64,000 nt of DNA from Caballeronia turbans (GTDB taxonomy: Bacteria; Pseudomonadota; Gammaproteobacteria; Burkholderiales; Burkholderiaceae). Shown here one piece after another: positions 35,878 through 42,539 of this stretch. Under the pieces are notes generated by a model. The model searched no databases. It was given only the letters and a program-made list of their open reading frames with translations, and was not told the origin of the DNA. Both the position numbers and the translations under genes were made by a program. Numbering within the stretch: the stretch's first letter is position 1; each line of letters begins with the position of its first letter. The DNA lies in NCBI GenBank assembly GCA_001544655.2, contig FCOD02000004.1, positions 186,001-250,000 on the forward strand, in the 5' to 3' direction.

Positions 35878-37260
35878 ATGGAAAAGAACTTCGGGACCAT
35901 CGAGGTCCAGAGCTTCATCGACGGCGAACGCTTTTCGCCGTATCAATGGGTCATTCTGATCCTGTGCTTTCTGGTCGTCGCGGCCGATGGCTTCGACACG
36001 GCGGCGGTCGGCTTCATCGCGCCTTCGTTGATTGGCGATTGGGGCATCACGCGCGCCGCGTTGGGACCCGTGATGAGCGCGGCGCTCGTGGGTCTCGGTA
36101 TCGGCGCGCTCGCGGCAGGACCGGTTGCCGATCGCATCGGGCGCAAGGCGGTGCTCGCGCTTTCCGTGTTCTTCTTTGGCGTGTGGAGTCTCGCGTCGGC
36201 GCAAGCAAGCTCGGTCGAAACGCTGACCGCGTGGCGCTTTCTCACCGGCCTGGGCCTCGGTGCGGCAATGCCCAACGCCGTCACGCTGATGGCGGAATAT
36301 GCGCCCGCACGCATTCGCGCGGTCGTCGTCAACACGATGTTCTGCGGCTTCTCAGTGGGCCTTTCGATCGGCGGACTGTGCGCCGCGTGGCTCATTCCGC
36401 ATTTCGGCTGGCAGAGCGTGCTCGTCGCCGGCGGCCTCGGCCCGATCGTGCTCACGGTGCTGCTGCTCTTTCTGCTGCCCGAGTCCGCGCAATTCATGGT
36501 CGTGAGAAGACACTCCGCGCAGAAAATCGCACGCGTCTTGCGGCGTATCTCGAACGATGCACGTCTTGCCGAAGGCGAGCGCGTCACATTCACTGCCGCC
36601 GATACGCGCACCGGCGGCGCGGACCAGTCCGCGCTTGGACTCATCGTTTCGCGGCCCTATCGCTTCGGCACATCCATGTTATGGCTCGCCTATTTCATGG
36701 GCTTGCTGATCTTCTATCTGCTGACCAACTGGCTGCCGACGCTCTTCAAAGACGCAGGCTTCTCCGCCGAACGCGCGGCGCTCACGACGTCGCTATTTCC
36801 GCTCGGCGGCATTCTCGGCAACCTGTCTCTCGGCTGGGTGATGGACAAGGCCAATCCGCGACGCGTCAACGCATGCGCCTATGTGCTCGCGGCGGCACTC
36901 GTGCTGACGATCGGACGCGGCGTCGCGGATCAGTTCTGGCTCGCGGTGCTCATCTTCCTGACGGGAACAGCGGTGACGAGCGCGGTCACGTCGATGTCTG
37001 CACTCGCGGCATCGTTCTATCCGACGCGAAGCCGCGCAACGGGCGTGGCATGGATGCTCGGCATAGGACGCATGGGCGCGGTCGCGGGCGCGATGACCGG
37101 CGGTCTTCTCATGAGCATGGGCCTGCAATTCGGCGCGGTCTTCACGCTGCTCGCCGTTCCGGCAGCCGTTGCCGCGTTGGCATTGGGCGCGTTGAGCCGG
37201 CGCGATGCGTCGCGTCAGGCAAGCGAAATGGATCAGACGGCGCGCGTGCCGGCAGAATGA
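35878..37260 (+). CDS. MFS transporter, aromatic acid:H+ symporter family
   Basis: A 460-residue twelve-helix carrier. The first-helix DGFDTAAVGFIAPSL, the loop GPVADRIGRKAVLALSV, and the GLGLGAAMPNAVTLMAEYAP helix are the marks of the AAHS family (PcaK, BenK). It would import an aromatic or alicyclic acid for the SDR-flavoprotein pathway. The C-terminal end overlaps the opposing Ohr remnant by 28 bases. GGAGACATACC precedes the ATG. Confidence 0.9.
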   Translation: MEKNFGTIEVQSFIDGERFSPYQWVILILCFLVVAADGFDTAAVGFIAPSLIGDWGITRAALGPVMSAALVGLGIGALAAGPVADRIGRKAVLALSVFFFGVWSLASAQASSVETLTAWRFLTGLGLGAAMPNAVTLMAEYAPARIRAVVVNTMFCGFSVGLSIGGLCAAWLIPHFGWQSVLVAGGLGPIVLTVLLLFLLPESAQFMVVRRHSAQKIARVLRRISNDARLAEGERVTFTAADTRTGGADQSALGLIVSRPYRFGTSMLWLAYFMGLLIFYLLTNWLPTLFKDAGFSAERAALTTSLFPLGGILGNLSLGWVMDKANPRRVNACAYVLAAALVLTIGRGVADQFWLAVLIFLTGTAVTSAVTSMSALAASFYPTRSRATGVAWMLGIGRMGAVAGAMTGGLLMSMGLQFGAVFTLLAVPAAVAALALGALSRRDASRQASEMDQTARVPAE

Positions 37261-37705
37261 GTCGTGGCATCGCTTTCGGTTGCAAGCGCAACTATATTGA
37301 CGATGCCCTTATGCGCCATCTTCGTATAAGGGCAAAAGCGCTCTGTGTTGCACACGAGTTCCTCCGCCGTCGTGCGGTCGATAGCGGGCATCTGAACGCG
37401 CGCGTGCGCGGTGAGCACGAAGAGGCCGTCCATTGGATCGCGGCCGAATTCGACCGTGACCGACACGCTTGCGCCCTCCACCGCGATGCCCGCGCGCGCC
37501 GCGAGCAATACGAGCGCGCCATGAAAGCACGCGGCATAGCCTGCGGCGAACAATTGCTCGGGGTTCGTACCGCCGCCGGGCCCGCCAAGCGTTTTCGACA
37601 TGCGCAAGTCGAGGTCGAGATTGCCGTCGTCGAATAAAGCGGCTGCACGTCGCGCCCTTCATACTTGTCGAGCAGGCCAACGGGCGGCGGATGCAGTGGC
37701 TCCAT
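37233..37705 (-). pseudogene. Ohr/OsmC peroxiredoxin with frameshift deletion near the N-terminus
   Basis: The downstream frame carries a nearly complete Ohr protein: LGGPGGGTNPEQLFAAGYAACFHG (active Cys) and CNTERFCPYTKMA (second Cys). A separate frame beginning at ATG 37705, with a GAGG site, gives MEPLHPPPVGLLDKYEG and VQPLYSTTA, which belongs to the same family N-terminus. The join lies at TTCGACGACGGCAA on the coding strand (37621-37634), and the usual TATGGRxG segment is missing. About 30 bases appear lost with a frame change. A shortened product from a downstream TTG cannot be excluded. Confidence 0.7.
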
Positions 37706-37742
37706 GACGACCTCTTCTATCAGCGATGACGACAGAGATCGC

Positions 37743-38042
37743 TCAATGCGCCGTTTGCGTCCGACTCTGGCTTCGCTCGAACCAGGCATCGAAATACATT
37801 GTGCCGAGATGCGCTTGTCCGCCTGGCAGCAGCGTGTCCGCTGCGAGTTGCGCGCCGAAGTAGAGCGCGCTCTCGTCGGCGAAGACCGTTCTTGCATCGC
37901 CCGTTACTTTGAAATAGCGCTGCATCAGATCGGACAGACGCGACCTGTCCGGACCCGCGATCTCGACAACACCGTTCACCGACGAACCTCCCGCGCGTGA
38001 TGCACCGTAGGTGTGCGCGCACGCGTCCGCTAGCGCCGTCAC
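37743..38042 (-). pseudogene. C-terminal remnant of an NAD(P)-binding SDR/NmrA-like oxidoreductase
   Basis: Only about 95 residues remain, with VNGVVEIAGPDRSRLSDLMQRY and FGAQLAADTLLPGGQAHLG, the C-terminal substrate-binding part of NmrA/epimerase-like oxidoreductases. The NAD-binding Rossmann domain is absent and an in-frame stop precedes the remaining sequence. It follows the LysR gene by 27 bases on the same strand. It is probably the decayed partner gene of the ECF41 module. Confidence 0.7.
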
Positions 38043-38069
38043 CGTACGCGCAGTGTTGCCTCCGTTGCA

Positions 38070-39077
38070 TCAATCGGCGATCGCGAGCGCCGAGGCGTTT
38101 GTGTTCGTCATGCTCGTCGTGAGGCAATGCAGATCGAGCGTGCGCGTATGCTCGGTCATGTAATCGACGAATACACGCACCCGTGCGGGCAAATGCTTGC
38201 GGCTGAGATAGCAGAGATAGTGGCCGCCGTCATCGGGCGCATGTTGCGCGAGACAGATGACGAGGCGCCCCGCCTTGAGCGAATCGCACACGAGATAGGC
38301 AGGCAGTTGCGCGATGCCCTGCCCGTAGAGCACCGCTTGCAACATCAGGTCGATGTCGTTGAACGTTTGCCTCGCGGCGGGCGAGCGTTTGTGCGTAAAG
38401 CCGTCTACCTTGAATTCCCAGTCGGCGATACGTCCTGCCGACGTACGGAAGTTGATGCAGCGATGGTTTTCGAGTTCCTCGACATGACGGGGCAAGCCGT
38501 GCTCACGCGCATACTCGGGCGATGCGCACACGACCATCTGCATCGGAATCAATTGCTTCGCGACGACTTCGCTGTCTTCCATATGACCATCGCGAAATGC
38601 GACGTCGACACGGTCGGCCGTGAAATCGCAAGGGCGATCGTTCAGGACGAGTTCCAGAGCAATCTCCGGATAGCGCGCATTGAAGCCTGACAGAAGCGGC
38701 GCGACGACTCTGCGGCCGAACCCCGGCGCGGACGCAATACGCAAGTGTCCGCGGGGCGGGCCGTGGCGCAGTTCGCGCATGTCCTCGAGCGCCTGCACGA
38801 TGCGCTCCACGCCCGGCTGACAGTTCTTGTAGAAGAGTTCACCCTCGCGCGTGAGCGACGTGCTGCGCGTGGTGCGAAGAAAGAGACGCGCATCGAGCTG
38901 TGCTTCCAGCTTCTGCACGTTGCGGCTGACGGCGGACCGCCCGATGCCCAGGCGATCGCTCGCTTTGGCGAAGCTGCCTTCATTGGCAACGGCAAGAAAT
39001 GAAACGACGCCCGCATAACTCGCCACGAAGCTATACGCGAGCGAATCGTCCGAGTGACATACGAGTTCAGATGGCAT
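38070..39077 (-). CDS. LysR-family transcriptional regulator in the ECF41 locus
   Basis: A 335-residue LysR regulator: FLAVANEGSFAKASDRLGIGRSAVSRNVQKLEAQLDARLFLRTTRST gives a canonical winged helix, split here by me for reading; the C-terminal half has the CbbR/DgdR-like effector fold (GHLRIASAPGFGRRVVAPLL). The first 25 residues precede the usual start of the domain, and a GTG at 39026 is an alternative start. A perfect ECF41-type promoter points at this gene 30 bases upstream. Confidence 0.88.
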   Translation of the reverse strand: MPSELVCHSDDSLAYSFVASYAGVVSFLAVANEGSFAKASDRLGIGRSAVSRNVQKLEAQLDARLFLRTTRSTSLTREGELFYKNCQPGVERIVQALEDMRELRHGPPRGHLRIASAPGFGRRVVAPLLSGFNARYPEIALELVLNDRPCDFTADRVDVAFRDGHMEDSEVVAKQLIPMQMVVCASPEYAREHGLPRHVEELENHRCINFRTSAGRIADWEFKVDGFTHKRSPAARQTFNDIDLMLQAVLYGQGIAQLPAYLVCDSLKAGRLVICLAQHAPDDGGHYLCYLSRKHLPARVRVFVDYMTEHTRTLDLHCLTTSMTNTNASALAIAD

Positions 39078-39110
39078 GGCGGCACGAAACGTAGTGGTTC
39101 TGTCTCACTA

Positions 39111-39137
39111 GACGTTCATGCCCTGCGCTTTGTGACA
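39111..39137 (-). promoter_or_regulatory. ECF41-type promoter TGTCACA-N16-CGTC
   Basis: On the minus strand the -35 TGTCACA (39137-39131), a 16-base spacer and the -10 CGTC (39114-39111) reproduce the published ECF41 consensus without mismatch. Transcription would start near 39104 and run into the LysR gene at 39077. It lies between the cupin gene and the LysR gene, two kilobases downstream of the ECF41 sigma gene itself. Confidence 0.7.
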
Positions 39138-39153
39138 CGCCATGCCGGATTTT

Positions 39154-39561
39154 TTATTTCACCGGCGTCAAAACCGGTTTGCCCTTGTCTTTGAGAAGCA
39201 GCACGATGAACTTCGCGCGCTTCGTGTTGCTGGCGTTGCGACCTACAGTGTGGATATCGTCAGGGCCTTCATAAAAGGTATCGCCGGGCTTGAGCGTCAC
39301 GGCCTTGCCGCCCTGAAGCTGCATGACGATCGTGCCTTCGAGCACATACACGAACGCCTGCGCGTCATGGCGGTGCACCGGATCGACCGCGCCCGGCGGA
39401 TATTCGACGCTGATCATCAGCGCTTCCTTGCCCGGAGATTCGGGCAGCGGCTTCGTCATGAGCTCCTTGACGATGGCCTCTGGCGCGGCCTGCGCCGTCT
39501 CCGCGACGAGCGCCGCGCATCCGAAGACGAGCGTAAGTCCCACCCGTTTGATGCTGTGCAT
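39154..39561 (-). CDS. Exported cupin-domain protein
   Basis: A 135-residue precursor with a signal peptide (cleavage near AQA-AP at 26). The mature cupin has VHRHDAQAFVYVLEG with H63 and H65 as metal ligands, and a later GDTFYEGPDDIH motif. A small-molecule-binding or dioxygenase-like role is possible. It lies 37 bases downstream of the CMD gene and belongs to the ECF41 operon. GGGAGA precedes the ATG. Confidence 0.88.
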   Translation of the reverse strand: MHSIKRVGLTLVFGCAALVAETAQAAPEAIVKELMTKPLPESPGKEALMISVEYPPGAVDPVHRHDAQAFVYVLEGTIVMQLQGGKAVTLKPGDTFYEGPDDIHTVGRNASNTKRAKFIVLLLKDKGKPVLTPVK

Positions 39562-39598
39562 GATCGTTCTCCCATGATCGAATGACGGCGCGAGCACA

Positions 39599-40078
39599 TT
39601 ACGAGAGGTTCGACTTGTCGAGGCCGAAGGCCTTGTCGGACGAACCCGGCACCGTCTGGAACGCGACATTCGCGCGATTCCATCCGTTGATCGCCATGAT
39701 GGCGTAGGTCAGGTCGGACAGTTCCTTTTCCGAGAACTGTTCGCGCACGCGCGCATAGAGTTCGTCGGGCACGCCGTGCTCGGGAATGCGCGTCAGGACT
39801 TCGGTCCACGCGAGCGCGGCCCGTTCGCGTGGCGAGAATAGCGTCGACTCGCGCCAGATCGCCACATGATGCGTGCGCAGTTCGCGCTCGCCGTGAATCT
39901 TCGCTTCCTTCACGTGCATATCGACGCAGAAGGCGCAGCCATTCATCTGCGATGCGCGAAGCGTGACGAGATCGCGCGTCGTCTGTTCGATCGAGCACTC
40001 CTGCACCGCCTGACTGAACTCATAGAACTTCTTGAACAGTGCGGGCGATTGTTGAATGTAGTTGATTCGCTGCGTCAT
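39599..40078 (-). CDS. Carboxymuconolactone-decarboxylase/AhpD-family protein (ECF41-linked)
   Basis: A 159-residue helical protein with the redox motif CAFCVDMH (C48, C51, H55), typical of AhpD-like alkylhydroperoxidases rather than true gamma-carboxymuconolactone decarboxylases. Such genes are the most common partners of ECF41 sigma factors. The likely role is peroxide or thiol chemistry. ATG 40078 starts the domain. It is 142 bases downstream of the sigma gene on the same strand. Confidence 0.9.
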   Translation of the reverse strand: MTQRINYIQQSPALFKKFYEFSQAVQECSIEQTTRDLVTLRASQMNGCAFCVDMHVKEAKIHGERELRTHHVAIWRESTLFSPRERAALAWTEVLTRIPEHGVPDELYARVREQFSEKELSDLTYAIMAINGWNRANVAFQTVPGSSDKAFGLDKSNLS

Positions 40079-40220
40079 GATGACTCCATGCCTGGTTGAA
40101 AATATCGCCGGCAACCCGTGGCCGGCATGGATGTCATCGTAAGTTTGCGCGCCTTTTCGCGGTAGGCGCGGGATCGTGCGCACGCTATTGCTTCGCGCGC
40201 ATCAATCAAAGTGGCAGGCG

Positions 40221-41102
40221 TTACGCATTGCCGTAACGCGCCGCGATGCGTTCGAGCTTGTCCGGGTTGCGTTGCACCTGAATTCGCACGATGCGCTCGT
40301 CTTCGATGTCGAATGTCTGCGCGGATTCGAGCTTGCCGTCGATGAAGCGCAAGAACGCCCATTCGCCATTGAGCATGACGAGGTCGAGACGCACGCCCTT
40401 TCCATAGCGCAGGAACGCCGCATAGAAAAGCTGCGCGATGCGCTTGCCGCCGAATAGCGGCTCCGGGAAACTCTGCACGCGACCGCCGCCATCGCCGACG
40501 AGCGTCGCGTCTTCCGAGAGCATCGCGTGGATGGCCGCGAAATCGCCGTGTTCGATCGCATGCGCGAATGCGCGCAGCAAACGCCTGTGAATCTCGCGCG
40601 GCACCGATTGGCGCGGGCGCGCCTCGCGCAATTGCGCTTTGGCACGGCTCACGAGCTGACGGCACGCGGCCTCCGTCTTGCCGATGATGCGCGCGAGCTC
40701 GGGATAATCGGCGTCGAAGACCTCGCGCAGCAGGAACGCCGCGCGTGCTTCGGGGCTCAGGCGTTCGAGCAGCATCAGAAACGCCACTGACACATCGTCC
40801 GCACGCTCGGTGACTTCTTCGGGCGTCGCGGGCGGCTCGGTGATTTGCGGCTCCGGCAGCCAGATGCCCGCGTAATGTTCGCGCTGCAGTTTCGCGGCGC
40901 GCAGCCGGTCGATGGAATGGCGCGTCGTGACGGCGACGAGCCATGCTTCCGCATTATCGATAGCTTCGCGCGCCGCCGCATGCCAGCGCAGCCATACATC
41001 CTGCACGATGTCTTCCGCCTCGGCGACCGAACCGAGCATGCGATATGCGATGCCCTGCAGACGAGGGCGCAGCCGGTCGAATTCGCGCGTGGCGTCATCC
41101 AT
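40221..41102 (-). CDS. sigJ: ECF41 extracytoplasmic-function sigma factor with C-terminal SnoaL-like domain
   Basis: A 293-residue sigma factor. Region 2 (AYRMLGSVAEAEDIVQDVWLRW) and region 4 (ELARIIGKTEAACRQLVSRAKAQL) recognise DNA, joined by a linker with WLPEP (81-85). The C-terminal SnoaL-like domain, about residues 165-293, holds DGGGR (204-208) and NPDKL (279-283). These three motifs define group ECF41, in which the fused domain replaces a separate anti-sigma factor. No anti-sigma gene is adjacent, as expected. It leads the operon with the CMD and cupin genes. Confidence 0.93.
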   Translation of the reverse strand: MDDATREFDRLRPRLQGIAYRMLGSVAEAEDIVQDVWLRWHAAAREAIDNAEAWLVAVTTRHSIDRLRAAKLQREHYAGIWLPEPQITEPPATPEEVTERADDVSVAFLMLLERLSPEARAAFLLREVFDADYPELARIIGKTEAACRQLVSRAKAQLREARPRQSVPREIHRRLLRAFAHAIEHGDFAAIHAMLSEDATLVGDGGGRVQSFPEPLFGGKRIAQLFYAAFLRYGKGVRLDLVMLNGEWAFLRFIDGKLESAQTFDIEDERIVRIQVQRNPDKLERIAARYGNA

Positions 41103-41249
41103 GAAGGCGATTAAATGAAAGGTGCGGAAAAGGTGATCGTATATCACGCGCCTATGTTCGTGACGATCACGACGATGCGCCAAAAGATCTGAGCAATGCA
41201 GCCGTTAATATCGGAAGCCGGATCCGACTGCATCAACCTCCGTTCATTC

Positions 41250-42539
41250 ATGACTCAATCCGAACATCAAAACGCGTCCGCGAATCCGACCCGCATCATC
41301 GTCGCGACCGTGATCGGTAACGGTTTCGTCGCCTACGACTTCACCGTGTATGGTTTCTCCGCGGCGATCATCGGACGGCTCTTCTTTCCCGCGCACGACG
41401 CCGCTTCATCCCTATTGCTTTCGCTCGCAACTTTCGGCGCGGGCTTCGTCATGCGTCCGCTCGGTGCCATGCTGATCGGCCGATACGCGGACCGGCGCAG
41501 CCGCGAGGCGGGCATGCGGCTGTCGATCGCGTCGATGGCGGCGGGCACCTGGCTGATCGCATGTCTGCCGACGCATGCGGCGATCGGTGCGAGCGCGACC
41601 GTGCTTATCGTGTTCGCGCGGCTTCTGCAAGGACTCGCGGCGGGCGGCGAGATCGGCCCGGCATCGGCGCTGCTGATGGAGTCCGTGCCCTACGAACGGC
41701 GCTGTTTCATGGTCAGCTGGCGCGGTGCGAGCCAGGGCGCCGCCGCATGCGCCGCGGCGCTCGTCGGCGCATGCACGTCCGCGCTGCTGTCGCAGGAGCA
41801 ACTCATGCAATGGGGATGGCGCGTGCCCTTCGTCATCGGCGGACTGATCGCACCGCTCGGCTGGTTTCTCCGGCGCATGCCGGGCCACGCGTCGGCGGCG
41901 AAGACACGTGCCGCACGCACGCCGCTCGCGATCGTGCTTCGCGAGCACGCACGGCCTCTCATTTGCGGCATCCTGATGATGGCCGCGCCTTCGTCGAGCA
42001 TCTACATTGCCGTGCTGTACATGCCGAGCTATCTCACGCACACATTGCACCGGCCACCCGCGATCAGCTTCCTGATCGCATCGCTCTCCGGTCTCGTGAT
42101 CCTCATCGTCACGCCGCTCGTCGCGCTCGCCGCCGATCGCCTGATGAGCCGCAAGACGCTGCAATACGCATCGCTCATCGGCGCGCTCGCGACGGCATAT
42201 CCCGCGTTTCATGCGCTCACGCAAGGCGCACCGGATACGCTCGCGCTCGTGATCATCCTGCTCTATGTCGCCATCGCGCTGAACAACGCGGGTGCGGGTT
42301 CGGTGCTCATGCTCGAAGCCTTTCCGAAGCATCGGCGCGCAGCGAGCCTCTCGGTCATCTACACCTTCGGCGTCGTCATTTTCGGCGGATTCTCCCCGCT
42401 CGCCGTCGCCTGGCTCATCGGCGCGACCGGCAATGTCATGACGCCCGCTTGGTATCTGCTCGCGGCGAACTGCGTGACGCTCTTCGCGCTCAGCCGCTTC
42501 CCCGAACGCCCCTCGAATGCGCGGCGTGCATGCGCATGA
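41250..42539 (+). CDS. MFS transporter, metabolite:H+ symporter family
   Basis: A 429-residue twelve-helix carrier. The first helix IGNGFVAYDFTVYGF, loop RPLGAMLIGRYADRRSR, and RLLQGLAAGGEIGPASALLMES are MHS-family marks (as in CitA, ShiA, ProP). It is expected to import an organic acid or a compatible solute with H+. The start is uncertain; ATG 41196 is an in-frame alternative. The gene overlaps the opposing AraC gene by 50 bases. Confidence 0.85.
   Translation: MTQSEHQNASANPTRIIVATVIGNGFVAYDFTVYGFSAAIIGRLFFPAHDAASSLLLSLATFGAGFVMRPLGAMLIGRYADRRSREAGMRLSIASMAAGTWLIACLPTHAAIGASATVLIVFARLLQGLAAGGEIGPASALLMESVPYERRCFMVSWRGASQGAAACAAALVGACTSALLSQEQLMQWGWRVPFVIGGLIAPLGWFLRRMPGHASAAKTRAARTPLAIVLREHARPLICGILMMAAPSSSIYIAVLYMPSYLTHTLHRPPAISFLIASLSGLVILIVTPLVALAADRLMSRKTLQYASLIGALATAYPAFHALTQGAPDTLALVIILLYVAIALNNAGAGSVLMLEAFPKHRRAASLSVIYTFGVVIFGGFSPLAVAWLIGATGNVMTPAWYLLAANCVTLFALSRFPERPSNARRACA

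Follow-up and report, generated by a model that had tools for sequence, protein, structure and literature searches.

An ECF41 promoter motif before a LysR-type regulator gene in Caballeronia turbans: a candidate two-tier circuit

The ECF41 locus and the described systems

Sigma factors of the ECF41 group occur widely, and a neighbouring COE gene has been reported as their only target. In Bacillus licheniformis (ydfG) and Rhodobacter sphaeroides (RSP_0606), the main text of one study describes COE genes as the sole detected targets and places the promoter, with the consensus TGTCACA-N16-CGTC, before COE or sigma genes (PMC3426412). The main-text account of RpoE9 from Sinorhizobium meliloti agrees, as the sole detected target is a COE gene with this promoter (PMC6180224).

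The locus considered here lies in a stretch of 64,000 nucleotides of Caballeronia turbans, referred to below as the window. The genes are on the minus strand in the order sigma, CMD, cupin, ECF41 motif, LysR, SDR remnant and OsmC/Ohr remnant, with the following features:

40221..41102, minus strand: ECF41 (SigJ/SigX4-type) sigma factor, 293 aa (TIGR02957, PF04542, PF08281, PF14534 below cutoff, SigJ structure 5xe7)
40134..40207, minus strand: predicted LysR-type operator/promoter element before the CMD gene (R1 model, E 7.8e-11)
39599..40078, minus strand: CMD/AhpD-like gene, the C of COE (PF02627, E 6.4e-21; TIGR00778)
39154..39561, minus strand: cupin gene (PF07883, E 5.8e-17)
39111..39137, minus strand: ECF41 promoter motif TGTCACA-N16-CGTC, predicted start near 39104 (exact match and conserved position)
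38070..39077, minus strand: LysR-type regulator, 335 aa (PF00126, E 1.2e-18; PF03466, E 1.7e-43)
38002..38075, minus strand: predicted LysR-type operator/promoter element before the SDR remnant (R1 model, E 3.4e-12; regular-expression match)
37743..38042, minus strand: SDR (NmrA/epimerase-like) remnant, of which the C-terminal part alone remains (comparison with relatives)
37233..37607, minus strand: OsmC/Ohr-like gene remnant (PF02566, TIGR03561; comparison with relatives)

The sigma protein is an ordinary member of the ECF41 group, and the variant feature is the wiring of the locus. The protein scores 374.7 bits against TIGR02957 (cutoff 323.25) and possesses sigma regions 2 and 4 (PF04542, PF08281) followed by a SnoaL-like C-terminal extension, for which PF14534 remains below its cutoff; the SigJ structure 5xe7 matches residues 6-282 (E 4e-46). 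Its gene has the CMD, cupin and LysR genes, the SDR remnant and an MFS gene as neighbours, with a COE-type neighbour and no adjacent anti-sigma gene. The C-terminal extension, the promoter sequence, the CMD neighbour and the absence of a neighbouring anti-sigma gene are shared with the B. licheniformis, R. sphaeroides and S. meliloti RpoE9 systems. In those organisms, however, the promoter stands on the COE gene, whereas in the Caballeronia locus it precedes LysR, and LysR-type boxes are found at the COE genes in its place. The placement of the motif before a COE or sigma gene described in PMC3426412 is not seen in the window, where the match precedes LysR. The word LysR does not occur in the main text of PMC3426412 or PMC6180224, and a literature search returned no title or abstract opening that describes an ECF41-to-LysR cascade, although a mention in the supplement of PMC3426412 is possible.

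The regulator itself has the N-terminal HTH_1 and LysR substrate domains of its family. The two genes downstream of it are damaged. An earlier note on this DNA, made from the sequence alone, had called the SDR gene truncated, and comparison with the Caballeronia relative L068 bears this out, since about 540 nt are absent. The SDR remnant alone has no Pfam or NCBIfam match, and the intact gene of L068 matches PF13460, PF05368 and PF01370 (NAD(P)-binding, NmrA and Epimerase). The OsmC/Ohr remnant lacks about 60 nt relative to L068, a deletion that puts its N-terminal part out of frame; intact copies occur in relatives.

The ECF41 motif before LysR

The earlier note had reported an exact TGTCACA-N16-CGTC on the minus strand at 39137..39111, and this is correct. 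The -35 element TGTCACA occupies 39137..39131 and the -10 element CGTC occupies 39114..39111, with the spacer inside the 16 ± 1 nt of ECF41 promoters, and the LysR gene begins 33 nt after the site. Also in agreement with the note, no ECF41 match within one mismatch was found upstream of the sigma and CMD genes of the window, and an ECF41 promoter for either gene at this locus was rejected on these grounds. The site is the only exact match in the window, where base composition predicts 0.03. The note had further proposed to ask whether it is the only hit in the genome, which it is not: the 7.35-Mb genome contains five exact matches, with 3.3 expected, and none to the reversed pattern. Uniqueness in the genome was consequently rejected as proof of the site, and the genome-wide count alone proves nothing because it is near the chance expectation. 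Two of the four other genomic matches recur with a near-identical spacer among exact matches in the genus and, read by eye, sit at conserved 5' ends of coding sequence; the remaining two do not recur among those matches. As a candidate promoter, the site before LysR is weak evidence taken alone and strong once compared across loci, since its conservation there is what raises it above chance.

For this comparison, LysR orthologues with their flanks formed a first set of 95 distinct loci, kept from 111, and a motif was scored if it lay within 220 nt before LysR with at most one mismatch. When the sigma gene is upstream on the same strand, the motif is present before LysR in 52/52 distinct loci (33 exact and 19 with one mismatch, all with a spacer of 16), as opposed to 3/43 loci without such linkage, counts that are not independent because related loci share ancestry. 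In the three unlinked positives, the sigma gene is on another contig (L095) or on the opposite strand (L146), or the contig ends before its place (L122). L144 and L168, both counted among the 40 unlinked negatives, offer less than 70 nt of upstream sequence, which is too little to score, and the unlinked locus L147 has a one-mismatch, spacer-15 match 253 nt away that is found with a 260-nt limit and lies outside the 220-nt limit. On the LysR tree, the motif label requires 6 changes, compared with a mean of 31 for shuffled labels. The 55 motif loci were selected by having a match, a procedure by which no sigma-linked locus was dropped (52/52 match); in them the -35 and -10 elements carry 1.86 and 1.97 bits per column, the values falling to 0.37 for the 5' flank and 0.70 for the spacer, and the T following CGTC is invariant.

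A second set was taken from genomes of the family outside the genus, with the unlinked genes chosen from the list of LysR matches. Here the motif was found in 18/18 sigma-linked loci (16/16 of those not seen in the first set) and in 5/20 unlinked loci (5/17 of those not seen in the first set). Fisher values for these counts take no account of the shared ancestry of the loci. All five unlinked positives are from genomes with an ECF41 gene elsewhere (G081, G121, G139, G148 and G155). The 15 unlinked loci lacking the motif come from 11 genomes without an ECF41 match at E ≤ 1e-60 and four with one (G122, G131, G156 and G163). Locus L221, where the sigma gene follows LysR, has no motif and is in neither group of these counts. 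In the first set, genome G011 has two LysR copies, one with the motif and one without. Before the other genes of the first set, the ECF41 motif was found in 5/57 cases for the sigma gene, 1/71 for CMD, 0/55 for SDR and 0/70 for OsmC; the single match before 68 cupin genes results from a contig edge. With reversed sequence as control, LysR, cupin and CMD each had one upstream match, with a single mismatch.

Several additional observations concern promoters of the sigma and LysR genes. In L136, L152 and L153, where the sigma gene is not followed by LysR, the ECF41 motif is found 35 nt before the sigma gene itself. A diverged second ECF41-like sigma gene, about 40% identical to that of the window, is present in 11 genomes (G001, G021, G029, G030, G033, G034, G036, G043, G047, G052 and G055) and has its own exact motif about 100 nt upstream, as in self-activation. 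In six Achromobacter and Bordetella loci (L138, L139, L140, L141, L142 and L177), an ATG (ATGGAC...) stands 8 nt after the CGTC -10, and the LysR mRNA would be leaderless or nearly so in these loci if this ATG is the start codon. A conserved TRATATACGATCA-like stretch precedes the sigma gene in Caballeronia (41134-41146 of the window, minus strand) and is perhaps part of a housekeeping promoter; TRATATACGATCA as a shared LysR site was rejected on account of its single occurrence in the window. Scans of 37200..41300 for sigma70 promoters and terminators found nothing exceeding shuffled sequence.

The candidate 74-nt LysR-type element

The spacer between the sigma and CMD genes contains a conserved block that also precedes SDR, OsmC and CMD in loci arranged differently, whether ECF41 is present or not. 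This element is 74 nt long, and its core consists of ATTGRTGC-N7-GCAACA, then CTACCG, 18 nt and a -10-like TACGAT. Within it, TGC-N7-GCA forms a T-N11-A dyad whose centre lies about 66 nt upstream of the start that the -10 predicts, and a position near -65/-66 is usual for the T-N11-A of a LysR-type box. The window holds two elements. In that before CMD (40207..40134), the T-N11-A box is at 40201..40189 and TACGAT at 40141..40136. In that before the SDR remnant (38075..38002), the box is at 38069..38057, and the element overlaps the stop codon of LysR. These boxes before CMD, SDR, OsmC and a distant hydrolase were absent from the earlier note.

A regular expression for the element matched upstream of CMD in 56/72 cases, SDR in 24/54, OsmC in 19/71, cupin in 8/69 and the sigma gene in 1/60; reversed and complemented controls gave no match. 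No match was found before LysR in the direction of LysR (0/93), and in sigma-linked loci none was found in either orientation (0/52). A box before its own gene, as in autoregulation, is common among LysR-type regulators, though not universal, and was not found for this one. The regulator thus resembles the T-N11-A LysR-type regulators in its HTH_1 and LysR_substrate domains and in a dyad at about -66 of the predicted starts, but differs from them in that none of the 52 sigma-linked loci has an own box and in that its expression appears to be put under an alternative sigma factor. In 4/43 unlinked loci, an element within the LysR upstream region faces away from LysR, and autoregulation is possible in these. 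Alignment of LysR upstream regions from genomes without ECF41 showed no clear shared box.

The profile R1 was built from 43 instances of the element, part of them from genomes of the genus. Over the whole C. turbans genome it returned three clear sites, namely the two in the window and one on another contig before a gene for an MBL-fold hydrolase (Lactamase_B), with the next match at E 0.16. Within the genus, a LysR orthologue (E ≤ 1e-60) is present in 30/58 genomes and the R1 element (E ≤ 0.01) in exactly those 30, a co-occurrence that is not a blind test because 13 of the 30 supplied training sequences for R1. In a survey of 150 genomes of the family, the listed ones of which include 15 from the genus, 54 have both the element and LysR, 1 has LysR only, 8 have the element only and 87 have neither. 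The lone LysR-only match is a 39% paralogue, and the element-only genomes comprise three at E 0.003-0.006 and five at E < 1e-5. The MBL hydrolase (E ≤ 1e-90) is found in 15/58 genomes of the genus, every one with LysR, and the element lies about 80-135 nt before 15/16 copies (one of them weak, L254); at L250 the nearest is about 1 kb away. Among 33 CMD matches in the genus, 30/30 of those retrieved as loci have the element upstream, and it is absent at the other three, one in each of the LysR-less genomes G039 and G041, and one being a second copy in G050.

A candidate two-tier circuit and its alternatives

What the sequences show of the two motifs, namely where they stand, how conserved they are and how they co-occur with the two regulators across the genomes compared, points to a conserved two-tier circuit, to which we give a probability of roughly 0.77. 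In the first tier, the ECF41 sigma factor, which in this group is reported to be restrained or set free by its own SnoaL-like C-terminal domain, would guide RNA polymerase to TGTCACA-N16-CGTC and produce the LysR mRNA. In the second, the LysR protein would bind TGC-N7-GCA, some 66 nt upstream of where weak sigma70-type promoters (-10 TACGAT) are predicted to start, and activate CMD-cupin, SDR and OsmC/Ohr and, in trans, the MBL-fold hydrolase. LysR would in this way control genes of a kind that is under direct ECF41 control in Bacillus, Rhodobacter and Sinorhizobium. Activation rather than repression is suggested by the position of the box. LysR probably has a small-molecule or oxidant signal of its own. 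Since no element precedes its own gene in sigma-linked loci, the sigma factor would set the amount of LysR and the LysR signal its activity, resulting in an AND-like relay. Read-through from sigma-CMD-cupin could also feed LysR. Against this model, the element covers SDR and OsmC only partially, and its orientation away from LysR in some unlinked loci slightly lowers confidence. Overall, the two-step wiring appears to be kept in many related soil bacteria.

The earlier note had proposed that the sigma factor drives both LysR and the former oxidoreductase gene in an unusual relay from one regulator to another. The association of motif and sigma linkage in both sets (52/52 vs. 3/43 and 18/18 vs. 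5/20) makes the LysR part of this proposal, direct control by the sigma factor, most likely. The SDR part needs revision: SDR has its own predicted LysR-type promoter element, which overlaps the LysR stop codon, and for this reason a view of SDR as no more than the second gene on the ECF41 transcript is probably wrong. The relay is likewise supported, in that the motif tracks the sigma gene; it is not an oddity of this strain, as the arrangement is conserved across loci.

Three other explanations must be weighed. The ECF41 promoter might give rise to a single LysR-SDR-OsmC transcript, so that ECF41 would directly control the COE-type SDR and LysR would be a passenger in first position. The three genes are co-directional in many Caballeronia loci, and the NmrA and Epimerase domains of the intact SDR correspond to the E of COE as defined in the main text of PMC3426412. 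In many loci, nevertheless, a LysR-type element separates LysR from SDR or OsmC; L091, L092 and L093 retain the motif before LysR with no match to this SDR/OsmC in the stretch compared; and in Achromobacter and Bordetella the SDR, OsmC and CMD genes are oppositely directed while LysR still has the motif, all of which make the single transcript an unlikely explanation. It is also conceivable, though improbable, that the ECF41 promoter is real and that the 74-nt element belongs to another regulator, in which case LysR would be a target rather than a relay to the COE genes. The eight family genomes with the element and no LysR match at E ≤ 1e-60 would be consistent with this, but the identity of the 30 genus genomes carrying element and LysR, the presence of the element in 54/55 LysR-positive family genomes, and the T-N11-A at about -66, the usual LysR-type place, argue for LysR. 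Finally, the site could be a chance match, of which a 7-Mb genome should hold a few at 11 exact bases, as the five matches found, close to expectation, would allow; this is hardly credible for a site whose sequence and position are conserved in dozens of species in dependence on the presence of the sigma gene.

Beyond the two-tier circuit itself, we lean, with some reserve, toward the view that the ECF41 factors of Burkholderiales have been rewired as a class. Direct COE control would have been given up, and a dedicated LysR would own an independent regulon of CMD-cupin, SDR, OsmC/Ohr, the MBL-fold hydrolase and others. This ancestral regulon would exist without ECF41 and be captured, as a two-signal AND gate, whenever an ECF41 promoter is placed before LysR. 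If true, this would be an instance in nature of one regulon taking over another by means of a single promoter. A regulator as the conserved target would open a further way into the ECF41 system. The candidate LysR operator is resolved to single bases, so that the regulon could be compiled for any genome and the inducer sought with a reporter.

The kinds of effectors (CMD, Ohr, SDR and MBL hydrolase) suggest oxidant or electrophile detoxification as the purpose of the circuit. Similar gene kinds respond to hypochlorite in Burkholderia cenocepacia J2315, where NaOCl induces a gene of the CMD family together with Ohr/OsmC genes (PMC2830190), a likeness at the level of gene family; the main text of that study has no occurrence of 'lysr', and no ECF41-LysR circuit appears in the passages considered. 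In Caballeronia, the element is additionally found before a pyridine-nucleotide oxidoreductase gene (Pyr_redox_2) in L195, similarly in L197, and before a phosphatidylethanolamine-binding-like gene in L188. The MBL hydrolase genes G000:C51:71570-72499 and G035:C5:425729-426658 are 100% identical between two species that show 88-95% identity in sigma, LysR and CMD, and the other species also has an 89% identical copy; the identical pair looks like a recent transfer.
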